From Tubulanus polymorphus (taxonomy: Eukaryota; Nemertea; Palaeonemertea; Tubulaniformes; Tubulanidae): a DNA stretch of 64,000 nucleotides. Positions 23,701 to 46,797 of this stretch are shown in pieces. Where the stretch lies: NCBI RefSeq assembly GCF_964204645.1, contig NC_134027.1:26772485-26836484 (forward strand). The letters run 5' to 3'. The position numbers and the translations under genes were made by a program. Below the pieces are notes generated by a model. That model was not told the origin of the DNA and made no database searches. It was given only the letters and a program-made list of their open reading frames with translations. Positions within the stretch are counted from its first letter, which is position 1. Each line of letters opens with the position of its first letter.

Positions 23701-26700
23701 TATCTACAGATTAAAAGAATTTAAAAAAAACAAGTTTTTTAGTCTATATCTCACACCTGACGATGATCTCTAGGTTGAGATCGAAACGTTGTGTATTCTA
23801 TATATTTCAGATTGAATAAATAAATTCTTGTTTTTTAAAAATTCTTTTAATCTGTAGATGGGTAGATGGTAGTGGATTTTTATCTTATTATCTGTTCACC
23901 ACGTTTGAGTGCGGTTATCGTTCTATTTCAGCTTTAATGTTTTCATGAAACTGCACCAAGAACGCGGTCATGGCTTAGACATAAAACCAGTCTAAGACCA
24001 TCTAAGTTCTTTAATCTTACAACTTACGACCAGTCTTAAGATTCAAAACGGCTTTTGGACTTAAGTCTCAACTATGAAAATCGCCCCTGGGGTTAAAACA
24101 TAGGTAATGAGCTGATTATATTTTGTGGCCCCTATTTAGTACCGTAAATCAATTCAATGCTTACTTTGACTAGAAAAAGACAGACTCCTAAAATACCTTC
24201 GGCGGTAAAGGCATCGATGAACATTGGTGCAGTAGATTCCTGAATATAAAAAATTGTCATCAGAAATAAGCACTATAAAGCTCTAATGAATTTTGAATTG
24301 AAACTTTTTAATCGAAAGATTTTTACTTCATGTTGTTTGTCGTTTGTAGCTGCCGTTATGTGAGGATTTTTCAAATGGCAAATAACATCATTAAATGCAT
24401 CAACGGCTTCCTGAAATATGAGAAATTAAAACATAAGAAATAAATCTATTCCTTAGAATGAAAACACATGAAAGTTCAATATTCAATTCATACCTGAAAA
24501 TCACATTTGGTGATGTACACAGAAAATGCTTTAGTCATGTTCTCTCTGATGGTCAATTGTGGATTAGCCAGTAACGAATACAACAATTGTTTAATTCCTT
24601 TCTGAATGAATTCGGGCATTTCATGCATTTCATTCATTCCCAGCTGAAATATGAACAGGTATAATATCGATAACGTGAACAAGAAAAACCCGTGCGAAAA
24701 ATCAGTAATTAATTCTTACCACTAATTTGTATTTTGGTTTATTTTCTGAAGCGACAGCAGCATCCACGTACGAGTCTGTCCAATGAAGTTTCTTCACAAT
24801 ATAATGAATTCCTGAATTATAAAGCAATGAATAGAATATGAACATGATTTATGTAACCTACGAATCAGTAAAATTCAATACGTACCAGTGATAGCACCTT
24901 CCTTCGCTTGCCACGTCGAATCAGATGATAAACAAACCTAAATCATATATCAATTCATAGTAAACCACTGAGAAAATACTCGTATAATAGTTAATAAGAT
25001 TAAAGCCCACTTAATTTAAAGGAGTCAATACAAAATTTATCATTTAACCCTTTCAGTGCTGACTTATTAATATCCATAAGTGCTGGATATCTAAATGAGT
25101 CAAACAAAATATATCAATTCAAAGTAAACCACAGAGAAAATACTCGAAGAATAGATAATAAGATTAAAGCCCTCTAAATTATAAAGGATTCAAAAACAAA
25201 ATTCATCATTTAAATCAATAAATAAGATGTTTCAGGCTCTCTCTAGAGACTATCGTCAGATATGAAATGTTTATCTTACACTTGCCAATGATCGGTAGAG
25301 TCTGAAACATTGTGTCTTTTGATATTAGTTCTTGATAAATGAATTTTGTTACCAGTCTTGGTGCATCGCTTGTTTTAATATTATCACTTAGAAAATGTTT
25401 CAATAAACAAATATATTTTACCGTTATAAGATGACTAAAGAATGACTGTAAACTTGGAATTGTTAATTTTTCAACAACAGGACCGAGTCTTGATGCGCAA
25501 ATATTACGAATTGCCGACCAGATATCAGTCATACCAGTTATCAGCAAACTCTGTAAGAGAATAATCATTAAACATCATCAGGTGCCGCAGTTTTAACCCT
25601 TTTTAAACCAGTGGAATTCTGGATGCAGGTTTCATTTCTGCTCGAATATTTCTGACCTCAACTCGTGGAAAGTTGTCTGTATTAAGCTGATCACTTGTTT
25701 TCTTCAACCATTCCATCACGTGCACAAAGGTCTGGTTTCTAACCATCGGCTTTTGGGATGCTAAAAATTGATGTAAAATTCACTTATAATTATTGAAATT
25801 CACATCATGGAATTTTATGTAATAACAATGCATTAATTGAAACAAGATTGGTTACTACAATTCAATTAACGTTTGTGTCATTTCGTAACTGTGGAACTTT
25901 TTTGCCTTTTGCTAGTGATAAAGATGAAGGATTTTGTAAGATTTACAAACCTGAATTAACAGTAAACTTGAAAGCTTCAATTAATAAATCATTGATGTCT
26001 TGGAACTTATACCTAAAACATATAAATAGTGGAGTGGATAAATCTTAAGCAGTTTAAACCTTTTTGCACTGCTGACTAATTGATAAGTGTTGAAGATAAT
26101 TTGAAAATTCTACCCAGTGCCTTGTTCAACAGGCAATGCGGTGTATCATTAGTTACTAATATTTCACTATGTTTGACAGGTGCTGCCATCTTTCAATAGA
26201 GATAAGAACTAATTACTAATTACATCAATACACTGTGAAGCGAGCTGTTCGGACATAATCCCACAGACCAAAATCCCACATCCCATATTCCCATATCCAA
26301 AATACCATAAACCAATATCCCACATTATTCCGGACAAATTACCACATTCAGGTTTTAGGAATATATAATCATAATGTATAGTAAAATATTCCTGTTCAAG
26401 TATTTTATTCTCAAAGAATATATCAAAAGTTATAAAATCTTCAAACGTAAATAATCAGTTTGTTGATATTTGCATGGCCCGTTTGATCTACTGGGAATAA
26501 TGAATAATAAGTACTCATTAATTATCATTATGTCTAATGTGTTCGTGCTAATTTCAGCTTAACACTGTTGAAAGATCAAAGTAAGACAATTTGCTGCTTC
26601 CATCATCCTTTCATCGGGAAAACAATGAAAATTAGTTATTAGTTTATTAGTGAAGCGATGTACTAGCAAGTCAATCACCGATTGATACACCGCACTGCGG

Positions 26701-27196
26701 TGTAGACGCATTGATACTCAGAGAGAAATATAGATAAAAGCACTTACCACTTAATAAAATCATCGAGTACATCGTTAAGAGGTGGTTTATATTTCACCTC
26801 GTCAATAGATGTCGCCACTACTGAATTTATACGATTCATTCTGCGTATGCGAACTTGTTTGACCTCTTTATATCCCTCCGACCAACCGTACCGTCTTTGG
26901 AACAAATAACTCGTAAATTTATTCAAATCGGATTGATTTAAACACAGCGAGCTGACGAACTGATCGGGAAATGGATTTTCATTCGATTCGAAGCTGTTAT
27001 AACGCAATAACATCGCCTCTTCCATGCTGACGTTATCAGACTTCACTTTAACCGAGGATAACGAAATATTCGCAGCTTTCTTCAACATTTGCCGTAAATC
27101 CCAAAGACTGTCTAATTCTTCTTCGGTTGTGGAAGCGAACTCTAATTTGGCTAAAGCAGCCTGCATCGCTTGTTTGATGATATAATCTGTATTCAT
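14708..27196 (-). CDS. Large HEAT/ARM-like helical repeat protein, unrecognised (1244 residues)
   Basis: 26 coding exons, in transcript order: 26748-27196, 25951-26012, 25657-25760, 25422-25550, 24886-24937, 24720-24811, 24494-24643, 24327-24410, 24165-24239, 23204-23504, 22928-23072, 22740-22827, 22210-22317, 20911-20963, 20511-20565, 19726-19923, 19026-19163, 18542-18727, 18013-18195, 17796-17923, 17257-17454, 16700-16826, 16238-16357, 16026-16155, 15348-15620, 14708-14814. They sum to 3735 nt with every junction in phase. A splice acceptor lies 14 bases before the ATG, so exon 1 is non-coding. The product is rich in amphipathic helices of HEAT style, has a Ser-rich charged linker (exons 22210-22827) and ends in an acidic tail with DWDDWSDDED. 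No signal peptide or membrane span. I cannot name the family; a cytosolic scaffold is only an inference. Confidence 0.8.
15049..15296. mobile_element. Dispersed ~250-bp MITE, family E
   Basis: Ends GGTCCGATCTAAGG and CTTAGATCGGACAC are inverted. The interior has GCAAGCATATCTGAAA and two ACTTGCCC words. A second copy sits in a UBA3 intron (39331-39588). This copy is in the last intron of the HEAT-like gene. Confidence 0.75.
16995..17112. mobile_element. Foldback MITE, family I, degenerate
   Basis: Carries AAAGTTAACCAGCGG, GATAGTTGACATAGTGACAA and a right end AACCAACTTTTCAGCAAC. Matches the clear copy at 35341-35459. Intronic. Confidence 0.5.
17158..17250. repeat. CCCTC-rich intronic tract
   Basis: A pyrimidine tract of CCCTCCCTGTCCCTCTCC-type words just downstream of the exon at 17257-17454 on the minus strand. 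On that strand it is a purine-rich (GAGGG) run near the splice donor. Confidence 0.7.
18806..18898. mobile_element. Foldback MITE, family I, degenerate
   Basis: CTCAAAAGACGGTTAAAGTT is followed by AACCAGAGGATAGTTGACAT. The right arm is truncated. Intronic in the HEAT-like gene. Confidence 0.5.
21717..21868. mobile_element. Foldback MITE, family A, diverged
   Basis: Left end GGACTCAGTTCTACGG, right end GCTGTGGAACTGGATCC, with GTTAAAATT-type inner arms. Intronic. Confidence 0.55.
23577..23950. mobile_element. Family J foldback MITE interrupted by a hairpin element
   Basis: The family J halves (CACAGTTTCATGAAA at the left, TTTTCATGAAACTGCACC at the right) flank a ~245-bp insert (~23682-23930). 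The insert has its own inverted arms: AAATAAGATAAAAACTCAC and ACTATCTACAGATTAAAAG against CTTTTAATCTGTAGATGG and GATTTTTATCTTATT. Its centre has GAGATCGAAACGTTG. A family B element follows immediately, so three elements are stacked. Confidence 0.65.
23951..24090. mobile_element. Foldback MITE, family B, diverged
   Basis: Shares GGCTTAGACATAAAACCAG and GGACTTAAGTCTCAACTATG words with 7945-8084. Intronic. Confidence 0.5.
26055..26720. mobile_element. piggyBac-like MITE (family C) remnants with internal insertion
   Basis: The left part (TTTGCACTGCTGACTAATTG) and the right part (CGATGTACTAGCAAGTCAAT, CCGCACTGCGGTGTAGACGC) match the complete element at 40252-40550. About 370 bp of unrelated sequence lies between them. 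Intron 1 of the HEAT-like coding region. Confidence 0.6.
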
Positions 27197-27239
27197 TGTG
27201 ATCAGCAGTACTGAAAATAAAATAAAAACTTTTATTACC

Positions 27240-27720
27240 ATTTGAGCTGCTTATCAACTCGAGCTGGCTTTCCTGACCAGTCACTGTGACAAGCTAGTTC
27301 AATTAAGCTGACTTTCCTGACCAGTCACTGTGACAACCCAGCTTGTCTTGTGTGTCCAGCCACTGAGACAAACTAATTGAGCTGGCTTGCGCGCTGAGTG
27401 TCCAGCCACTGAGACAAACTGATTAAGCTGGCTTGTGCCCAGAGTCCTGTGTCACTGAGACAAACTGATTGAGCTGGCTTGTGCCCTGTGTCTAGCCACT
27501 GAGACAAACTAATTTAGGTGGCTTGCGCACTGAGTGTCCAGCCACTGAGACAAACTGATTAAACTGACTTGTGCCCAGTCTCCTGCATCACTGAGACAAA
27601 CTAATTGAGCTGGCTTGTGCCCTGTGTCCAGTCACTGAGACAAACTAATTGAGGTGGCTTCCTGTGTCCAGCTACTAAGACAATCTGATTGAATCATGTG
27701 TCCAGCCACTCTGTGCTTGT
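27240..27720. repeat. Minisatellite at the 5' end of the HEAT-like gene
   Basis: Variable units of roughly 45-60 bp built from GAGCTGGCTTGTGCCC, TGTGTCCAGCCACTGAG and ACAAACTAATT. The first two units carry CAGTCACTGTGAC, with a GTCACTGTGAC palindrome. It lies in the 5' non-coding intron. Confidence 0.85.
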
Positions 27721-28631: not shown

Positions 28632-31600
28632 ATGAATTGTATTGGTGAAATGAGTTTCGACGATGTCAAAGAATTCCTGATTGAGAATCAATTAGATTCA
28701 TATTCGAAAGTATTCCGTGGTAAGTTAAACCGCTAGGCCTAGCCCTGCCTTGTGCAACATCATCGTTCAGTATTGAAATACTAATGAAGACATCAAATTA
28801 TTTTGTAGAAAACAAGATTGATGGACGAGCTTTGTTGTTACTTGACGATAAAAACCTTCAAGATTTAGGAGTCGGGTAAATAAACTATTAGGTCAACGAA
28901 TCCTGAATTGAATCGTTCTTTCTTTTATGTTCTATACAGTGGAATCCACTTAATCCAGTTGACGAGAAATCCAGTATAAAAAGTCAACTGCAAATATTGT
29001 CCGGAAAAGACCAAGATTCCGATTAAGCCGATCCGGATTAAACGGGTTTGACTGTACACCAAAACAGGTCATGAACGTCCTCCTACCAAAACGTCCTCAT
29101 AGACTGTACCCTACTGGTAAATTATATATTTCAGAGCTATGGGAGATCGGTTAAAACTGTTACGTTTTATACATCAGAGCATCCAATTAGAATCGATCGG
29201 TGATGAAAAAGTAAAGGTACAAATATATTGTCTGTCTTGTAAACATGTAATAATCACTTTCACAAGCATCGATGATCAGTGGAACTTTGTTAGAGCAAAC
29301 TTCACGGGACCAGAAAATATGTTTGTCGTAACCAATGAGTTTGTTACTGTATACCCAGTATTAAATTAATCAAATCGTCTAATTGGGACAAAATTCTATG
29401 TTTGATATATATCCGATGAATCGTTGTAACAAGGTTCCACATGTGAAGTGTGGATGATCAGTTTTTGAAAGTGCACTGATAAAATGTCTAATGTCTGGTG
29501 TTTGTAGTTGCACCGCGTCGTAAGGCGACAGATTGATACTTGCTTTAATCACATTGAGAATGTTTATTATTGATAAACTCTATTTGCAGGTATTCAATGA
29601 TCCGATCCACGGTCATATAGAATTTCATCCATTATTGATTAAAATTATGGATACGCCGCAGTTTCAAAGACTTCGTTATCTAAAACAACTCGGTGCTTGT
29701 TATTACGTGTTTCCCGGCGCTTCTCATAATCGTTTTGAACATTCTATAGGGCAAGTAGTACTAACTAACACCACATATTCTCCGTATATATTTTTACTGG
29801 TTTCATAATGAAAACAATTTTGATGTATTTTCAGTGTTGCACATTTAGCCGGGGAACTAGTGAAAACATTACAACAAAAACAACCTGAACTTCAAATTAC
29901 CATCAAAGATATTATTTGCGTTCAAATTGCTGGTTTATGTCATGACTTGGGTATATATACTTTCGAGAATGACTATGATTAAATTCTAGTTTGTTTTTAC
30001 GAACGTATTTTCAAATCTTATCTTGTTTTTTAGGTCACGGACCATTCAGTCACTTGTTCGATGGAAAGTTTATTCCCCATGTGCGTCCACAATGCAAGTG
30101 GAAGGTATGAGTTCACTTTATACAAACCACTTCAGGTTGATAATGTATATGATATCATAATCAACGGTCTCTCTTTTGATTACAGCATGAAATTGCTTCA
30201 GTCAAAATGTTTCAATATTTACTGGATGATAATGAACTTTACGATGAGTTTCACAGGTACGGTCTTACGGAGAAAGACATCAAGTTCATCAAAGAGCAAA
30301 TTGCTGGACCGCGACACGATCTAAAATCTGAGGTATTCCAGGGAGAAAGTTCACTCAAAATTTCCTGTTATTTGAAGTAAGAATAGATATCTCTTTTCAT
30401 TCATTAAATTTTCTTATTCAGATTTGGCCATATGAAGGGAGGGACAAATCAAAAAGTTTCCTCTATGAGGTAAGATGTTCTGAAGCTATGTTAAGACTCG
30501 AGTCTACGCGATATGATTGTATTTTATTTTCGATGTTGAATTTTGTTATTGAAGGTCGTAGCGAATAAGAGAAATGGAATAGACGTCGATAAATGGGATT
30601 ATTTTAGTCGCGATTGTCACATGCTCGGCATAAAGAATAGTTTTGATCATCAGCGTTTTATGAAATTCGCTCGTGTTCTCGCCGTCAATAAAATGTTACA
30701 GATCTGCTGTAGAGATAAGGTCAGTAAAACCCATGTATGCTTTGAATGAATATTGATTTTGTGTCGTACAAGAAAATAGTTTACCATACAGTCAAAAGTC
30801 GTTATAGTTGGGACGATCATTACGTTAATGACTTATCCAAATGATGACTTACACTAAAATAGGCTTCAATTGATGGCCTTTGGTTAAGGAATAAAAATCC
30901 TGCATTACAAACTCTACCGGTCGCTTCTATCAGGATATAGATTATGCTATTGCAGAATAGGTAGAGCTTATTCTGGTCTTGTCTCCAGAAAAGTATTCCA
31001 GGATTGATAGAGACCCCTCAAAATTTGCCTTAGAAAATTTAATCTGATATGCAGATTTAAAGACTTATTCAGTAATGTATTGACTTATCAGATGACTTGT
31101 TAATTGAGTTTGACTGTATTTTGATATCTGTTGTACATTTTACTTAATGGTTTCCTTGATTGAATAAACTCCTACTCGAGACGGCATTACGTCGAATCAT
31201 TGTTTGGATTTCAAACCCTGCCCTGATGCATGTTTTGTTTGACAGGAAGTTGCTAATATCTATGACATGTTTCACACAAGAAACTGCTTACACAAGCGAG
31301 CGTATCAACATAAACTAAAAACGATCATTGAAACCATGTAAGTGAAATGCACACATTAATGATGAAGGATCATTACATGATTTCAGCAGATCATCCGCGA
31401 ATTACTGTAACAGCTTTAACCCTTTCAGTGCTGACTTATTAATACCCAAAAGTGCGGAGATAATTTGGGAAATTTCTAAATATTCCACTTGATGCGATGT
31501 ACTAGCAAAGCCATCACCGTTTTATACACCGTACGATGCACTGAAAGGGCTAATGAATCAAAATATTAAACCCCCATTTAATTTGGCTTTAAAGGGCTAT

Positions 31601-34225
31601 ACATTTGGCTTGTAAAGTTGTACAGGACTCAGTTCTATATTTGTCGGTTCAGATCAATCGATTTCCAAAATCTTTGAACCGGCTTCAGTTTTGTATAAAG
31701 TACAGTTGATTTCGGAAGATCTTGATTTGAAAACATGCTATCGATTCTGCGCACGTTTTAACGATGCGAGTGATTGTTATTTTTTCATGGAACGTTGATT
31801 AACAACAGGAGGTGAATAATATATACGATATGTTTCATACGCGAAGCGCGCTACATCGACGTGCTTATCAACATAAAACTAATCAAATAATGGAGGTCAT
31901 GTGAGTAATCAATGTATATATACGCAGAAAATACCATCGATTTGCTAATCTGTTGCCTGATATCTTTTTAAACTTGTCTTTTGGTGTTATGTTGCATGAA
32001 ATGCCTGGGCCTGGTTTCAGAAAATGGAATCAAGGCAAGTTTTATGCGTTTTCGCCCAAATAAATTTAAATGAATTGCTTTGTGATGATGAAATCAGCGC
32101 TCCTGTTAATAATTTCCTAATCTAAAATGAAAGGATTTTTATTTTATTTTTCAAAAACAGTCCAACCCGCTTATAATTCGGATCAGTATAATCTGGGTGA
32201 ATTTGGTCGGCAACAAATTTATAAGATTTTTTTAACATCGTTAACATTAAACAACGTTACTTGATCGGAGGATTTTACTTCCTAGGAATGAAGATTCCAG
32301 AATAATCCTATCTTAGGCGAGTTTGTACTGTAGTTATTTCATTGATTAATCCTTCTTTATCTCATTTTTTTGTTGTAATTATCAGGTTGACTGAGGCGCT
32401 GATCGAGGCTGATCCTTACTTGCTGATCAGTGGCACAAACGGGTCAGTAATAATCATATATCATCTACATTTATTCTTACACGTAACAAAATGAAGTGAG
32501 CAGCATCAGTGTATATTTAGGGATCATTCATTTATTACGTACTCATTATGGGAGGGGGAGCGGTAAGTGCAATTGCGTACTGTAATGCTTAATGTATATG
32601 AAAAAATGGCCGATTTTAAGTACAGGGGGGTTGAAAAATTCTAATTTTACGGGTAAGTTATAAATGATCCCTTATATTGTATTTTTCTTAAACAGGAAGA
32701 TGATGAAAATGAGTGAATCGATTGATGACATGGTCGCTTATTCGAAATTAACTGACTACGTTACTCATCAGATTAAAATGTCGACCGATCCGAATCTAAA
32801 AAAATCTCGAGACATCCTCGAAAAAATTGAAAAGAGAAAATTATATAAATGTATCGGACAAACGCAATCGCATATCAATGAAATTATATGTCGGGTGAGT
32901 TGAAGTTTTCATTGAAATCGCATTCAATTATTCATTACCATCGGTATTCAATTTATGCATGAATTTTTTATTGCATTTCCTTAAAAGAAAAGAGAGAGCA
33001 CAATTCCTAACGAGATCGCCAAGGCTTTATCAATCGATGAACTGGAGGAAGTTGAAGAATTAAAACATATAAAACAGAAAGCACCTTTACGGGCAGAAGA
33101 TTACTTAATTCATGTAAGTTTCATTCCACAAAATGGAGAAATAAATGATTGAAATGATCACATAATTTGGACACAATTTTCCAGTCCCAGGTGATCCGAA
33201 TTAAGTGAGTTCTCATGTATATAAGGCGGTATTTATTCGACTGTTTTCAGATAGCACAATTCGATTATGGAATGAAAGATAAGAATCCTTTGGATAACGT
33301 TTGGTTTTACATGAAGAACGATGTGAACACGCCGATTCAAGTTCGCAAAGATCAGGTATCAATTCTCAGTGATCCCGTGATGATTTTAATGATCAATATC
33401 AGGGTTTCCAGCGGTCCTTCCGAGTCCTTCTTTTGGAAAACGTATGGACTAACATCATCTTTGTCCTTCTTTTTGACTCTAAGTCCTTCCTTTTGATAAG
33501 AAAGTCCTTCCAAATTTAATTTTTATGTATTTTCACGCGCAATTTTGTCGTGCATTCGACTGTTGAAGTGTTTTATTACTCAGGACAGTAATTAAATTGT
33601 CAGTAATATTGAATATACAGGAAAGTGTTATGGAATTACCCTGAAATGTATGACTGGTCTACACGACTAGTATTTCGGCAAAGGTATTGTTTAAATGCTC
33701 CCTTATGGGCCCTCATTTTACTAGAAAGTACCTCTTTCCGAGTCAAAAAGTCCCTCTTTTTGGGTCTAAAATTGCCGAAACAGTCCTTCTTTTTATCCTG
33801 GCCTTACCTCTGGAAACCCTGAATATGTTGCGGTGTTGTTAATTCAGTTTAATGTATTTGGTTCGTACAGGTTTCGCAAATGCTTCCTGATCGGTTTTCT
33901 GAACAATACATCCGAGCGTATTCTAAGAAGACTGACGAGGACAGCATCGAAATAGCCAGAACTTGTTTCAGCGCCTGGTGTATCATGAATGATATGACTA
34001 TACCTAAGGTATTAAGTTTTTATTTTCATCGACAATCTTATTTTACAATCCAATCCATGTAGGTGCGTAAAGGGTATTGACAGCAGACTTTGAATTGTTG
34101 GCTTTTGTTTGTAGGGAGGAGATTTATTAGCAGTTGAACTGACACCGATGAAGAAAAGAGTTTCGCCACCAAAACATTCGAATCCAACTAAAGCTGTTAA
34201 ATCGCTTGATTTCTGCGAACAATGA
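28632..34225 (+). CDS. SAMHD1: SAMHD1: SAM- and HD-domain deoxynucleotide triphosphohydrolase
   Basis: Exons 28632-28719, 28809-28875, 29135-29216, 29590-29750, 29835-29950, 30034-30104, 30186-30332, 30422-30469, 30555-30719, one of 31246-31337 or 31809-31900, 32386-32442, 32696-32894, 32988-33113, 33251-33355, 33871-34008 and 34115-34225 give 590 residues (human ~626). SAMHD1 cleaves dNTPs to deoxynucleosides and triphosphate as an allosteric tetramer. Seen: an N-terminal SAM domain (~5-75); HD-site motifs [19 protein letters not shown] and [11 protein letters not shown]; and LTPMKK near the C-terminus, matching the CDK-site region of the human protein. The intron after 29750 begins GC (ATAGG then GCAAGTAG). 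All junctions are in phase. Confidence 0.93.
31246..31337 (+). other. SAMHD1: SAMHD1 alternative exon A (mutually exclusive pair)
   Basis: 92 bp with acceptor GACAG and donor CCAT/GTAAGT. It encodes [13 protein letters not shown], then [13 protein letters not shown], then IIETM. Homologous to exon B at 31809-31900, with the same length and phase. Since 92 is not a multiple of three, including both or neither breaks the frame. Confidence 0.85.
31426..31553. mobile_element. piggyBac-like MITE (family C), short copy between the SAMHD1 alternative exons
   Basis: TTAACCCTTTCAGTGC at the left and GCACTGAAAGGGCTAA at the right, about 128 bp. The TTAA target with CCCTTT ends is the piggyBac signature. 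Confidence 0.75.
31809..31900 (+). other. SAMHD1: SAMHD1 alternative exon B (mutually exclusive pair)
   Basis: 92 bp with acceptor AACAACAG and donor GTCAT/GTGAGT. It encodes [13 protein letters not shown], then [13 protein letters not shown], then IMEVM. It differs from exon A at about ten positions, including K/R in the HKR/HRR motif and L/T just after YQHK. Confidence 0.85.
33402..33822. mobile_element. Intronic element with AGGGTTTCCAG ends
   Basis: Inverted ends AGGGTTTCCAG and CTGGAAACCCT enclose ~420 bp with repeated GTCCTTCTTTTTG-type words in both halves. It lies in a SAMHD1 intron and has no credible ORF. Confidence 0.6.
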
Positions 34226-35140: not shown

Positions 35141-36604
35141 TTACGATCCTGCCTCTTGTTCCTGTCCGAGAAGTTCGAGTAATAATCCCATAGGAGTGCG
35201 TTTAACCCCAACAAATTCTATTCTGTTTGATATTTTGTTTCGTACGTTTCTCATTCGCAAACTGGCATGAATCAGAATCACTGAAAATAGAACAAAAGAC
35301 TCGTTAATTAACTGCGAATATGTAATAGATTTAAAACTCTGGGGCCGGTTTCTCAAAAGTTGGTTAGAGTTAACCAGTGGATAGTTGATATGGTGACAAT
35401 TGTAATTTCATTGTTACTATGGTATTTAACGGCCGGTTATCTTAAACCAACTGGCCCCTGCTTGCTTCGATCTCTGGTGTAATAAATTTAGACTCGGAGT
35501 CAGTTGTAGTATCATCACGAGTTGGAGTTGGATATCTTGTTCGAGGTAAAATGCAGTTAAGAGATATCAAGGAATTCTTCATCAGATTTACTTTTCCTTT
35601 TTGAAAATCAGGGAATTAGACTTTTCTAATCCCGAGTCTGACAATCAGGTAAAGTTCAGGAATTTGAATTTTTTGGAGTCCTGGGCCTAGTTTCACAAAA
35701 AAGTTTATCTAAAACTTTTGGTGTAATTACCATTGGTTACTTCATGTTTTCAATGAGGACAACAATTCAAGCTTAACCATTTTAAGCTTAAACTTGTTCG
35801 TGAAACTGGGCCCTGTTGTTGCAAACTTTTGCTGGTGCAGAGTCGCACATGGACGCTCCATGAGAATAAGAAACAACCCTGACTATCAGGGAGTTTTTGG
35901 GTATCCTGATCTGAAAGAGCCCTGTGATTGTTAAGCTGATACTAACCCGCTAAAGGTAAGGCTATTCCTAACAGAAACACGAGCACGGATCCAACAATGT
36001 AGACGAATATGTATCCCAAAGTTAAAACAACAACAAGACTCATCGCTGGATGTGAACGCTTCATTCTGCGCAGCTCGTACTTATTCTCCGTCGCATATAC
36101 AAATATTCCAAACGCGATTACCGTGGCGATAATACCGATTGCCATCTGAGCCGGGTTTAATATACTGTAAATAATCAAACAGATACCAATAAGTGTCACT
36201 TGTGGCCAGTAATGAAAGAAAAGTAAGAATACTGAATAGATTAGACAGCTGTTAGAACTGTCGAGTTCACAGACAGTCATCTCCCGGGCCCAGTTCCACA
36301 GTTGTGAGTTAGAGTTAACTTTGAGGGGAGTTAAAGTTAGTTCATTTTCATAGTCAAACAACTCAGAACAACTGTGGAACTGGACCCCGGTCTCCACCAC
36401 AGACTCCACACAGTTCAATACATACCCGATAATAATGAATATGATACAAGCTGTCAACATGTAATTAGTTTGATAATACAGTAGATTGTTTAATACTCTG
36501 TTCACCCATCTTTCTACATTTCTCACATTTGGCACCTGAAACCTCGCGGATTCCAGTAAATAGTCGTCTAAACTTCGCAATGGCGCGATCTCAATCTCCG
36601 CCAT
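35141..36604 (-). CDS. ARL6IP5: ARL6IP5 (JWA/PRAF3)-like PRA1-family membrane protein
   Basis: Exons 36426-36604, 35947-36164 and 35141-35280 give 178 residues (human ARL6IP5 is 188). Family landmarks run in order: IAPLRSLDDY at the start, NLLYYQTNY before the first hydrophobic pair, ELRRMKRSHP in the loop, a second hydrophobic pair, then IHASLRMRN and VGVKRTPMG at the C-terminus. Four hydrophobic segments form two membrane hairpins. Relatives act at the ER and Golgi in membrane shaping and in regulating glutamate transporters and small GTPases. The frame stays open upstream to 36718, but the ATG at 36604 gives the family N-terminus, so I choose it. Intron 1 contains a family A MITE that keeps the frame open and could mislead gene finders. 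Confidence 0.92.
35341..35459. mobile_element. Foldback MITE, family I
   Basis: GGGGCCGGTTTCTCAAAAG at the left and AAACCAACTGGCCCC at the right. The inner arms have GGTTAGAGTTAACC and CCGGTTATCTTAA. It lies in intron 2 of the ARL6IP5-like gene. Confidence 0.75.
35692..35813. mobile_element. Foldback MITE, family J
   Basis: GGGCCTAGTTTCACAAAA and GTGAAACTGGGCCC form inverted ends of ~120 bp, with AAGTTTATC and AAGCTTAAACTT arms. It is in the same intron as the family I copy. Confidence 0.75.
36286..36388. mobile_element. Foldback MITE, family A
   Basis: GGGCCCAGTTCCACAG and CTGTGGAACTGGACCCC are inverted ends. It lies in intron 1 of the ARL6IP5-like gene, where it is open in the coding frame. 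Confidence 0.8.
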
Positions 36605-37206
36605 TGTGGTTAGGATCAATAAAGTGGAAATTGAATTGAATTGGGAATGGAGTGTCGGGTTATCGAGTCTTGCATCAAACCCACGCGTCCATCCACTGGT
36701 TTCGAATCCCAGACACATTTCATTATATTTTATTCAAATGGATTAATTTACATCATCGACATATTTCTTTTGTCTTTTAATACGTTTTTTTATGTTTGAT
36801 TTTCATCCGAGCAATATTCTGACGATTATTCCAAATTAATTGGAATATTTAGTTCGCTATATTCCCGCTAGAGGGTACTAGCATACATTCGACTTCCGGT
36901 CTTAAAATAAATAGAAATAGAAAAGTAAAATAATAACAAACTTCCCGGTAAATATAGGTGCACTTACCCTCATAAAATTTCGATAGCAGATGCCCTGTAA
37001 AAAGAAAGACTGTAAACCAATCAGCCATTTTCGTGATTCAATTTCATTTAGCCTAATTTAGATCCGATCTCAATCAATTTAATTTTTTCAATCGATTCAT
37101 TTGACATTCAAATTCAATTCGATCATCTAATCGGTATAGACTTCAACTTCCTGAAAACTTTGTTTTAAATTCCAGCAGCTACAGCCAGGAGGTGTAAACC
37201 GCTGAT
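36605..37206. promoter_or_regulatory. Head-to-head intergenic region, ARL6IP5-like / UBA3
   Basis: About 600 bp separate the two divergent ATGs. It presumably carries both promoters. A splice acceptor (TTCCAGCAG) shortly before the UBA3 ATG suggests that UBA3 also has a non-coding first exon. No motif stands out. Confidence 0.35.
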
Positions 37207-41676: not shown

Positions 41677-42312
41677 ACACAATGTGGATTATATTAACAT
41701 GATCAAATACAAGACAATAGTTCAGTAGTGAACTCACGGAAAGACGCTTCCTCCTGATTCAGTTTATTCGACAGAAATATGCACTTTGTATAAACATATT
41801 GTTTGTATCCATTTTTGTGTATTCATCAGTATTATTGTCATTACGTAATAAATTGTACATTTTGTAATTAATTTAAAGATTGATGTAAATATATCGTAGC
41901 AAATGACGTCATATACTGTATACGACGTTTAGTTGGAGTTATACATTGTAATCAATTGATGAATCATGTAAATTCAATAAGAATACTTTCGTTGATTTAG
42001 TTGTGAACTTTATCTCTGTCTAATATTATAGAATTAAAAATTGTCCACGTTGAAAAACAATGCGTTTTTTTTTCAAAATGTCTCTGGGGCAATAAATTTA
42101 CATAAATAGAATTTCTGTTTTCTGTTTTTAATGGGAAAGGATTGTCAATAACGGACAATGGGATTTCAGTAAACACCTCCTTCCTACATTAAAAGTAGAG
42201 CAAATTCTTGATCTTGGCATGAAAGCCTCTGAAGGTAATAAAAACACGTCCAATTTCGGAAAGAATATCATTCTGTGAGTAAATCGGCAGACGATCAGAT
42301 TGAAATCGACCG
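41677..42312. other. UBA3 3' region and ninjurin-A upstream region
   Basis: An AATAAA at ~41847-41852 is a good UBA3 poly(A) signal. The rest is AT-rich. A possible acceptor (GACGATCAG) lies shortly before the ninjurin-A ATG. Confidence 0.4.
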
Positions 42313-43635
42313 ATGGGAAATGCACTTGTCAATGACATTAGTGATTCTGATCAACCACTAGCTGGAAATACTACAGAAATGTTCCCCGTAACTCAACCGC
42401 CTATAGTTCGCAATTCATGGCAGGATTTATCACTTCAGAACGCTACTCAGTTAGACCATTATCAAACTGTTGATCGCAGACAATCAGGCAGACTGTCAGT
42501 CACTGGTGAACCAGTAGTGACGAGCGGAGTCACCCAGCAGATACCAGGCACTAGTGGTCATCTTCAACCGGGGGTCAACTCTACCCAGCAGCAGATACCG
42601 GGCACTAGTGGTCATCTTCAACTCGGGGTCAACTCTACCCAGCAGCAGATACCGGGCACTAGTGGTCATCTTCAACCGGGGGTCAACTCTACTCAGCAGC
42701 AGATATCGGGCACTAGTGGTCATCTTCAACTCGGGGTCAACTCTACCCAGCAGCAGATACCGGGCACTAGTGGTCATCTTCAACCAGGGGTCAACTCTAC
42801 CCAGCAGCAGATACCGGGCACTGGTGGTCATCTTCAACTCGGGGTCAACTCTACCCAGCAGATATCGGGCTCTAGTGGTCATCTTCAACCGGGGGTCAAC
42901 TCTACCCAGCAGCAGATACCGGGCTCTAGTAGTCTTCTTCAACCGGGGGTCAACTCTACCCAGCAGCAGATACCGGGCACTGGTGGTCATCTTCAACCGG
43001 GGGTCAACTCTACCCAGCAGCAGATACCGGGCACTGGTGGTCATCTTCAACCAGGGGTCAACTCTACCCAGCAGCAGATACCGGGCACTGGTGGTCATCT
43101 TCAACCGAGGTTCAACCTCAACGTACCTCCTAATGATGCGGGGAGTCATCAACAAGTTCATGGATTTACCTCAATACCAGGACTGGGAGAAATAGGAAAC
43201 ACTCAATATTATCACGGCACTGAAACAAAAATCAGCAAAAAACGACGGAGGATCAGTTCTGATCAATACGTCACGAAAAAAACCGCCTTACATCAAATTT
43301 GTAATATAGCTTTATTTACATCAAATATTTCGCAGTTGAGAATGAATTTGAGTTTAGGATCTGAAGGTCGACATGAAGTTTACGTCGCCAGTATTGGATT
43401 ATTGTCTGTATCTATTCTGTTACAAGTAATAGTATCGAGTGTGTTATTAGTAATGGGTCGGAAAGAAGGCATGAAAGATGTCGAATCCGATGAAAGACGA
43501 AATAAACCGGATAATTTAGCGAACGCAGTAGCTGTCCTCAGTTTTCTCACTGTTGTCGTTAACATTGCTTTGGTGTCTTTTTCAAATGTTGGATTTGATG
43601 AGAGACCAAAAACTGGAAATTCTTCAATTATCTAA
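42313..43635 (+). CDS. Ninjurin-family protein A with tandem-repeat N-terminal extension
   Basis: Single coding exon, 440 residues. Residues ~317-430 are a ninjurin domain: QYVTKKTALH, an amphipathic helical stretch with LFTSNISQLRMNL, then two hydrophobic spans (~359-381 and ~402-424) joined by a charged loop. Human NINJ1 is ~152 residues; this protein is nearly three times as long because residues ~75-270 are 11 tandem 18-residue units. Family members are plasma-membrane proteins; NINJ1 mediates cell adhesion and oligomerises to rupture the membrane in lytic death. The N-terminus of ninjurins is extracellular, so the repeat would face outward. First of three tandem ninjurin genes. A poly(A) signal is at 43769-43774. 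The domain assignment is firm; the function of the extension is unknown. Confidence 0.88.
   Translation: MGNALVNDISDSDQPLAGNTTEMFPVTQPPIVRNSWQDLSLQNATQLDHYQTVDRRQSGRLSVTGEPVVTSGVTQQIPGTSGHLQPGVNSTQQQIPGTSGHLQLGVNSTQQQIPGTSGHLQPGVNSTQQQISGTSGHLQLGVNSTQQQIPGTSGHLQPGVNSTQQQIPGTGGHLQLGVNSTQQISGSSGHLQPGVNSTQQQIPGSSSLLQPGVNSTQQQIPGTGGHLQPGVNSTQQQIPGTGGHLQPGVNSTQQQIPGTGGHLQPRFNLNVPPNDAGSHQQVHGFTSIPGLGEIGNTQYYHGTETKISKKRRRISSDQYVTKKTALHQICNIALFTSNISQLRMNLSLGSEGRHEVYVASIGLLSVSILLQVIVSSVLLVMGRKEGMKDVESDERRNKPDNLANAVAVLSFLTVVVNIALVSFSNVGFDERPKTGNSSII
42535..43110 (+). repeat. 54-bp coding minisatellite in ninjurin-A
   Basis: Eleven units of 54 bp (one is 51 bp, lacking a Gln codon) encode STQQQIPGTSGHLQPGVN and variants (PGTGG, SGTSG, PGSSS; LQP/LQL alternate). 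The period keeps other frames open too: a 213-codon frame on the same strand and a 221-codon frame on the other are shadows. Confidence 0.92.
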
Positions 43636-44249
43636 AATTCGTGTTTGAACCCTTTCTTGATAAACTTTTCATCTACGAATCTACCGCGTATCCCATTTAC
43701 CGCATCTTATCCTTTTACTTATTCTGAAGTAGTTTCATAGAACAGATGAGGACATTCCGAGTTTGGAAAATAAATTGGATCGGGAAATGATGGTGTTAAC
43801 TGTTCAGAGAGCGAGCAGCCTGTTCCTTGCTCCAGACCGGACAACTCAGTAAACCGCTCACAAACTTTATTCCCTGGCTCTCATATATATCTACAGTCGA
43901 ATACTACCAAATAAGCTGGAATTTACTGATTTATGTTGTCAGTATCGAGTTATTTATCAGATAGCGTATTTATGATATAATAATGATATTTATCTATTGA
44001 TAATAATCGTTTATAAAAGATTTTTGTACAGTTTTAAACAGGGACGGGGATTGTTGTTTATTGAAACGAGTTCATTAACTGGTTCCGGGACATAATCCTT
44101 GCATTGACATAGTTATGGTATTTAGAATCTGATCATATGTGACATTTTGAACAAGATTATATACATTTTTATGTTATATTGTGTGCGACATTTGCTGCTC
44201 GGCCACTCTCAAATATTCGGGCGCTGAGATTCCCGTTCTGGTCGCGATT

Positions 44250-44939
44250 ATGGATCCAAAAATCGCTCACGTCAACCCGGCTTATTCATCAGTGGACTAC
44301 GAGGAATACATGTCACAAATTCCGCCGAGTTATTCATCACCGGTTGGACATCACGATGAATTCAGATTCGAGCTCCGGTCACCGCCGCCACACAGGATGA
44401 TAAAACGATCAGCTGATGACGTCACCACCCCCAGTGACGCGCATCACAGTCGAAGCTTACAAAATGCTTCCGGACGAAGTAAGAAAAACGACGTGATTAT
44501 ACCCGCGGACATTTTAAGACGAAACAAAAAATCTGATGGTAATAAAGTTCAGCAGCAGAAAAAGATAATCACGAATGACCATTACGCCGCTAAAAAGACG
44601 GCAGTTCACAGTGTGTGCAATCTAGCATTACTTACATCGAATATTTCGCAATTAAGAATGACTCTTAGTTTGGGAGCTGAACGAGTTGAATTTTACACGT
44701 TCGTTATAAGCATGTTATCGATATCTGTCATTTTACAAGTTTTAGTCGCCTGCGTTTTGTTGTGTATCGGTAAAAACGAAGGTTTGAAATCGACTGAATC
44801 GGAGAAACATATGAACCATTCGGATATATTAACGAATATTGTGGCTGTTCTAAGTTTTCTTACAGCTATTGTCAATGTTTGTATCACATCGTTCTCGACG
44901 ACTGACATCAGACAAATAAACAGAAATACATCTCATTAA
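44250..44939 (+). CDS. Ninjurin-family protein B
   Basis: 229 residues from the ATG at 44250. The frame is open back to 44181, but that start is less natural. The N-terminal tail is polar, with NPAY and PPSY words (PPSY fits a WW-domain ligand), and basic near KKSDGNK. The ninjurin domain runs from NDHYAAKKTAVH through LLTSNISQLRMTL, then two hydrophobic spans. The ninjurin part is closest to protein A (SNISQLRM, SLG, LTNIVAVLSFLT), so A and B look like a recent duplicate pair without the repeat in B. A poly(A) signal is at 45093-45098. A 5' exon cannot be excluded. Confidence 0.87.
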   Translation: MDPKIAHVNPAYSSVDYEEYMSQIPPSYSSPVGHHDEFRFELRSPPPHRMIKRSADDVTTPSDAHHSRSLQNASGRSKKNDVIIPADILRRNKKSDGNKVQQQKKIITNDHYAAKKTAVHSVCNLALLTSNISQLRMTLSLGAERVEFYTFVISMLSISVILQVLVACVLLCIGKNEGLKSTESEKHMNHSDILTNIVAVLSFLTAIVNVCITSFSTTDIRQINRNTSH

Positions 44940-45544
44940 CAGACATTATAGACAAACATTGTTTATGTTTGTTGAGAGATTTGTTGATATGTTATTTGTA
45001 ATTTGCTATGTAAATTAATATGTTATTTTATGTAATCTATATATAATCTATAGAATATGTAATCTATGTAATTTAATATATATTTAGAACGAAATAAATG
45101 TCTTTTTTAAATGATAAATCAATTCTGGGCTCCTAATCTTCTGAAAAGCGATCAAAATCAAAACCTTTTTGTCATTTTGCTAAATGAAATCGAAATCGTA
45201 ACAAATACCCGTGCTGTAGCGCAAACCAAACCTGTGTCCACTGGTTAAAAATGATTTCCCATGTTTAACCGTGACGATGATCATCATATCTCGTCAGCTA
45301 AAATTCCCTGAGTTGTTTTCTCAGGATTTGGTATTGAAATCAGTTTGTGATGTGTCATCCTGTACGGGGCATCATGTGGAAATAATGCAATTCTTTCGCT
45401 AATTGATATTCCACATATTAGTCAACACCCTCATTATACTGGTTTCATATGACTTCCAGTGACAGATGGACCTGTAATATTCTATAGGTGGTTTCAGCGC
45501 TTATATCTGTTGTAGTTACTTGTCAAACCAACAGCTTATATACA
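44940..45544. other. Region between ninjurin-B and ninjurin-C
   Basis: Holds the 3' UTR of B and the promoter/5' UTR of C. No ORF or clear element was seen. Confidence 0.35.
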
Positions 45545-46797
45545 ATGGTAAGTTAGTTTCTATTAAAATTCTACTATGGGAGTTTTTTTTTGTATTTATA
45601 ATCATATTAAAAGAAACGATGAAAATCAAATTCGAAGCCTGTACCACTGACCTGTTACGACAGAGGTAGGAAGTTTGTTTGTTCGATGTGGTGACTGTCT
45701 ATGAGTATAATGACCAAATCAAGTGTGGTGACTCTTTCGCTAGAATACCCGCTACCATTCTGCAAAAAATAAAATCGAAAGGAATGTATAATTTAGAATT
45801 GAAGCGTAGGTGAAATTTTCAAATGGTTACAGAGAGGATTTTCTAACAAAATGAGGTCGAATTGTGGCACCAATTGAGGCCCAACCTGGCACTAGCCAAC
45901 CCTAACTCTAGCCCCGTCTCTACCCTAACCACAGGCTCGAACCAGCAACCTCCAGCATTCAAGTCGTGTACACTACCCACTTGACCAATGAGCTCCGGGT
46001 GGTTGACGGGGTTCACAGATTTGCCTGGTCAGTGTGGTGACCATAACTGGTGATCAGTCAGGTGTGGTGACTGCGGGTTGTTATCACTAACCCTATCAAA
46101 GCGAATCCATTGTGAGACACATTCACCACTGTTCGATCTACTGTTCCAGTATCGACGGGTTTTAGGCGATTTATGAATTATCTTATCAAATGACTGATTA
46201 TTTTTCTAGGCGACAAACGAACAAGAAATATCGTCGAAAGAGACGGTTCCATTAGTCGCGACCAGTAATAAAGAAGATTCGGTTGATAATCCAGCTGCGT
46301 CGATATCAACGACTTACGGAGGAACAACGGGTGCTTCACCACCAGTGGAAAACAGCAGAAATAAAGATCCTGAAAAATTAACAGAACAGAAACAGCAAAT
46401 TCCCAAAGTCATCAGCATTAATCATTATAACACGAAGAAAACGGTCGCCCATGCTGTAACATGTATTACTGTGCTGACAGCGAACGCGAGTCAAATTCGT
46501 CAGATAATCCTCTCCGAGAAATCCGAGGAGGCTTTCTACTGGCCTCTGCTCGGTTTGATGATCAGTTCTTTAGCGTTACAGATTATCACGCTTATCATAC
46601 TGTTGATAGCTGGTAAATCCGAGGGGGAGGATTATGAGGTGAATGAAGGAGCCGCTTTGATATGGTTGGATAAATTAACGAATGTATTGGTCGCATTTTG
46701 TTGTTTGAGCGCTTTACTGAATATCTTCATTACGACGTTCGTTTCTGATATCCCGATAAGTAACCAATCTTCGTATCCATCAAAACTCACTGGATGA
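45545..46797 (+). CDS. Ninjurin-family protein C
   Basis: Exon 1 contributes only the ATG (45545-45547, directly followed by GTAAGT). Exon 2 is 46210-46797. Total 196 residues. The ninjurin domain starts ISINHYNTKKTVAH and has LTANASQIRQIIL, the best match in the cluster to human NINJ1 (NHYASKKS, MANASQ). The lysine and alanine positions I recall as needed for NINJ1 oligomerisation are kept. Two hydrophobic spans follow, then a short tail. It is the most divergent of the three paralogues and the only one with a visible coding intron. A poly(A) signal is at 46912-46917. Confidence 0.87.

Follow-up and report, generated by a model that had tools for sequence, protein, structure and literature searches.

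A candidate pair of mutually exclusive exons in the SAMHD1 gene of the nemertean Tubulanus polymorphus

The SAMHD1 gene and its neighbors

The window analyzed here, that is, the whole stretch of 64,000 nucleotides taken from contig NC_134027.1 of Tubulanus polymorphus, harbors a gene for SAMHD1 on its plus strand, whose coding part extends from the ATG to the TGA over positions 28632-34225. The exon model, assembled by hand from the sequence, lists 17 exons, 16 of which are used in each transcript, and its spliced product is 590 aa in length with either exon 10A alone or exon 10B alone (see below). This protein is composed of a SAM domain (E-value, 1.2e-12) and an HD domain (1.4e-10), and is 55.5% identical to human SAMHD1 across 541 aligned residues. 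Comparison with the human enzyme reveals that the HD metal ligands H167, H206, D207, and D311 are present, and that the allosteric residues K116, D137, Q142, R145, R333, R352, K354, N358, R372, H376, K377, R451, and K523 are all the same as in human. Those encoded by exon 10 agree with human in both isoforms, as does every catalytic, AL1, and AL2 residue checked. With the two domains, the metal ligands, and both allosteric sites in place, the gene is, by its sequence, that of a SAMHD1 dNTP triphosphohydrolase. When the protein was used as a query against the whole 268-Mb assembly, a second SAMHD1 copy was not found, and the other matches were weak and SAM-like. A search of the genome with the HD family profile gave no match; split exons limit the sensitivity of this profile search, while the protein query did succeed.

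Some minor features of the gene are also worth recording. Intron 4 starts with GC instead of GT (TATAGG/gcaagt; 29750-29751), i.e., it is a GC-AG intron, and the frame across it (HSIGVAHL) agrees with that of human SAMHD1. Among the three redox cysteines of human SAMHD1 (341, 350, and 522), only C350 is kept, and L and M are found at the other two positions. The protein retains T592-P-x-K as the CDK site, along with R451/L453 for cyclin binding.

Directly downstream of SAMHD1, a PRA1-family gene (PF03208) is located on the minus strand at 35945-36733. Just 5′ of SAMHD1, degenerate tandem repeats of about 50-65 bp (GAGCTGGCTTGTGCCC...CACTGAGACAAACT) can be seen by eye at 27250-27700, and a minus-strand ORF (26747-27250) lies on the far side of these repeats. 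Furthermore, Ninjurin (PF04923) is matched by each of three consecutive plus-strand ORFs at 42304-46794, suggestive of Ninjurin genes clustered in tandem; an in-frame tandem-repeat stretch is also present in the first of these ORFs, at about 42500-43190.

Two versions of exon 10

Exon 9 (30555-30719; donor, AAG/gtcagt) is followed by two homologous exons on the same plus strand, exon 10A at 31246-31337 (acag/GAAGTT...ACCAT/gtaagt) and exon 10B at 31809-31900 (acag/GAGGTG...GTCAT/gtgagt), both 92 bp in length and separated by 471 bp, and then by exon 11 (32386-32442, plus strand). Exon 9 ends on a codon boundary, each of the two copies starts in phase 0 and is open in the coding frame only, and exon 11 completes a split ATG codon (M385 in human), two bases of which have to be supplied to it. 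In the spliced models, joining of 10A to 10B leads to a product of 347 aa ending in ...ETMR and a stop, and skipping of both copies to one of 317 aa ending in ...DKVD and a stop; in either case, no more than three codons are read before the stop. Because both copies or neither give an early stop, full-length SAMHD1 needs exactly one of them. The sequence-only reading of this stretch, which had named the gene SAMHD1 and described two homologous 92-bp exons of the same phase about 470 bp apart, just one of which can be used at a time, agrees with the protein comparison, the coordinates, and the spliced models.

Both copies are bordered by GT-AG sites. Their donors score 9.08 (A) and 8.95 (B) with a standard matrix and belong to the better donors of the gene. 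The acceptor of 10B contains pyrimidines at 6 of 17 positions, the lowest value in the gene, compared with 10 for the acceptor of 10A, and with this weak acceptor the B form could be rare. At the level of sequence, features expected of mutually exclusive exons are found here: neighboring homologous internal exons of equal length and the same phase, with usable splice sites, unproductive joint use, and purifying selection on both copies (see next paragraph). Exons 10A and 10B are a good candidate for such a pair, which would be ordinary in type.

The two copies share 59 of 92 nucleotides (64%) and 21 of 30 amino acids, and their 33 nucleotide differences are distributed as 8, 7, and 18 over the three codon positions. 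dN between them is close to 0.24 and dS has reached saturation, and their 150-bp flanks are without detectable likeness; because of the saturated synonymous change and the unlike flanks, the duplication is considered to be old. When an equal number of random changes was introduced in a neutral simulation, protein identity was 10/30 on average and 18 at maximum, 21/30 was reached in none of the 20,000 runs, and a stop codon arose in 71% of them. Identity to human SAMHD1 is 22/30 for 10A and 20/30 for 10B, and the mean over the protein is 17.2 per 30-aa window. As far as can be judged from these comparisons, neither copy looks decaying. The poor pyrimidine tract of 10B might be taken as a sign that one of the copies is left over from the duplication and is unused or in decay, but this is very improbable in view of the frame, splice sites, and protein kept intact in both copies despite the saturated dS, the outcome of the simulations, and the fact that 10B is nearer to human than the gene average. 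Mis-assembly can also create duplicated segments; an assembly or haplotype artefact is, however, hardly credible for copies that are 36% divergent and accompanied by unrelated introns in an assembly with a single SAMHD1, and the divergence between the copies led us to reject it. No third copy of exon 10 exists on either strand of the window, where 10A and 10B score 163 and 160 and the next best match 42, and no further exon duplications were found within the SAMHD1 gene.

The human SAMHD1 gene consists of 16 coding exons, in which exon 10 starts at residue 355 with GAA GTT and exon 14 covers residues 502-536 with 105 nt (PMC3503569). The T. polymorphus gene is the same gene with the same domain order and coding exon number; its exon 10 starts at the same codon (E355), and its exon 14 is likewise 105 bp with the same extent. 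Because these 16 exons, the start of exon 10, and the extent of exon 14 are shared with human, the ancestral exon 10 was probably single and doubled later in this lineage. The human gene has one exon 10 and its known variants skip exons, resulting in unstable and inactive proteins, whereas here either copy completes the enzyme.

Differences on the helix of the tetramer interface

Exon 10 encodes the segment corresponding to human residues 355-384. The contacts of allosteric site 2 in this segment, N358, R372, H376, and K377, are identical in 10A and 10B, and the same holds for R366, H370, Y374, and Q375 of the active site; D361, H364, and L369 also agree. The copies differ at nine human positions, 357, 367, 368, 371, 378, 379, 380, 382, and 384, none of which is a nucleotide contact. 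Two of the nine, C/A at 368 and K/R at 371, are on listed residues of the Dimer-2 interface and the other seven are outside them, an overlap that is a description and not a statistical enrichment with so few positions. Mouse and another mammalian SAMHD1 likewise carry C at 368. Both the C/A and the K/R exchanges are mild and may make little difference to function.

In a cryo-EM structure reported in 2024, N358, D361, H364, S368, and R371 on the neighboring helices 13 form the hydrogen bonds of Dimer-2 (PMC11074143), and an earlier structure placed R372, D361, and H364 at the interface (PMC4592219). The human interface changes D361K, H364K, and R372D result in less tetramerization and activity (PMC7045340), and L369S, an AGS patient mutation, lowers oligomerization (PMC8843919).

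These comparisons bear on the rest of the sequence-only reading. It had correctly placed the contacts R372, H376, and K377 in this segment and noticed the L/T exchange just after YQHK, which is position 378 among the nine. The difference between HKR and HRR that it pointed out is real but lies at 371, not at R372, a contact where both copies have R, and its view that the difference touches the nucleotide contacts is contradicted by the identity of all four. It had offered an altered activator preference or tetramer stability as the outcome; assembly or lifetime of the tetramer is favored over activator choice, because the contacts are identical and 368 and 371 are on the Dimer-2 interface. A difference in the preference for activators or substrates, set at allosteric site 2, is improbable for this pair: the exon holds the four contacts and the differences at 371 and 378 adjoin them, yet no contact residue itself differs between the copies.

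Another possibility is that the exons are truly mutually exclusive, but that the isoforms are biochemically near-equivalent and the pair is kept for regulating SAMHD1 output through unproductive splicing with both copies or neither. The identical contact residues and the mostly conservative differences are consistent with near-equivalence. Output regulation, in turn, accords with the stop within three codons in both failure products and with the fact that 60% of human mutually exclusive exon clusters are frame-incompatible (PMC5740500). We nevertheless regard this as rather unlikely, since a single skippable exon or a poison exon is all that output regulation needs, and the identity of both copies to human (20-22 of 30) is left unexplained.

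Probably, the locus is an old tandem duplicate kept as a mutually exclusive pair, from which two enzymes differing in tetramer assembly or lifetime are produced. In this reading, an ancestral SAMHD1 gene of 16 exons would have undergone an ancient tandem duplication of its exon 10, after which neither copy was lost. Each mRNA would carry either A or B, while transcripts with both or neither would stop at once, give no full-length protein, and presumably be decayed. The A and B enzymes are predicted to share the active site and the nucleotide contacts and to differ on the outer face of helix 13 (368 and 371; Dimer-2) and in the following stretch 378-384, and the most likely effect would be that the active tetramer assembles more or less readily or persists for a different time. 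At the interface, helix 13 packs against its own counterpart, so that three kinds of contact could arise where a cell contains both isoforms; A and B subunits may mix, and cell types or stages could set dNTP breakdown differently. More tentatively, and with less confidence than we place in the pair itself, one gene may give two complete enzymes that differ only in the tetramer helix and form homo- and hetero-tetramers of different lifetime, so that splicing, not phosphorylation alone, sets the duration of dNTP breakdown in each tissue.

To be active, SAMHD1 requires a tetramer that is long-lived, and control of this lifetime in cells has been studied mainly with artificial mutants. If the proposal is true, the interface helix would occur in two natural, selectively maintained forms, which would offer a ready-made comparison, and the pair would also show that tuning of the enzyme by splicing occurs in a non-mammalian SAMHD1 gene.

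Mutually exclusive pairs in enzymes are already known. For example, exons 6a/6e of coq-2 in helminths, annelids, and molluscs also go back to an ancient tandem duplication of an exon in a metabolic enzyme of invertebrates, with one copy nearer to the common animal form and single-residue differences in the core (PMC7434440). A duplicated exon in one invertebrate enzyme gene is also described for the alternative oxidase of oyster, a different gene for which two mRNAs are reported (PMC5589949). In coq-2, the swap alters substrate choice, as shown by RNA and genetics (PMC7434440), whereas the pocket of SAMHD1 is identical in both forms and its exon pair, unlike that of either enzyme, is known from genomic sequence alone. 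Human mutually exclusive exon clusters resemble the present pair in that adjacent homologous exons in the same frame encode a segment embedded in secondary structure and shift the frame when used jointly; SAMHD1 is absent from the main text of that survey (PMC5740500). In the titles and abstracts of open-licence literature, we found no report of SAMHD1 with mutually exclusive or duplicated exons, which is not proof of novelty, and we know of no other such pair in SAMHD1.

Splice choice and the intron between the copies

All the splice sites are U2-type in appearance by eye. Splice-site geometry is one mechanism of mutual exclusion, not a requirement for it. In this case, exclusion by steric geometry (less than 50 nt from donor to branch point) is ruled out by the 471-bp intron, and the sites give no sign of a U2/U12 mismatch. 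The reading frame itself serves as a backstop against joint use or joint skipping.

An arm in the upstream intron (31136-31155, plus strand) is complementary to the donor region of exon 10A (31329-31348, plus strand), which covers -9 to +11 of the splice site, with the first intron base bulged. The predicted stem has 18 bp, interrupted by a single bulge, and an energy of -18.2 kcal/mol; none of 1000 shuffled introns paired as strongly. A comparison of the gene's 16 donors with the same three introns gave the strongest deviation for that of 10A (z, -3.3), and folding of the region (local fold z, -3.0) recovers the stem in the MFE structure as well as in the centroid. Because 15 site-intron pairs had been tried before the stem was found, 2.2% of random 21-mers from the gene pair equally well with the upstream intron, and the stem comes from a single genome, it is regarded as a lead only to a candidate control element over the 10A donor. 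In the same site-by-site tests, neither the pairing of the 10B acceptor with the downstream intron (64/1000) nor that of the exon 9 donor (70/1000) stood out clearly from chance. Exon choice probably reflects a balance between the weak acceptor of B and a donor of A that could be hidden in an RNA stem.

The intron between 10A and 10B also harbors a MITE-like short repeat (31416-31553, plus strand) with 16-nt terminal inverted repeats, TTAACCCTTTCAGTGC / GCACTGAAAGGGCTAA. Its relatives in the genome number 43 among the matches listed, with 421 first-look candidates, and a sequence resembling this element is also seen near 26050-26180 of the window.
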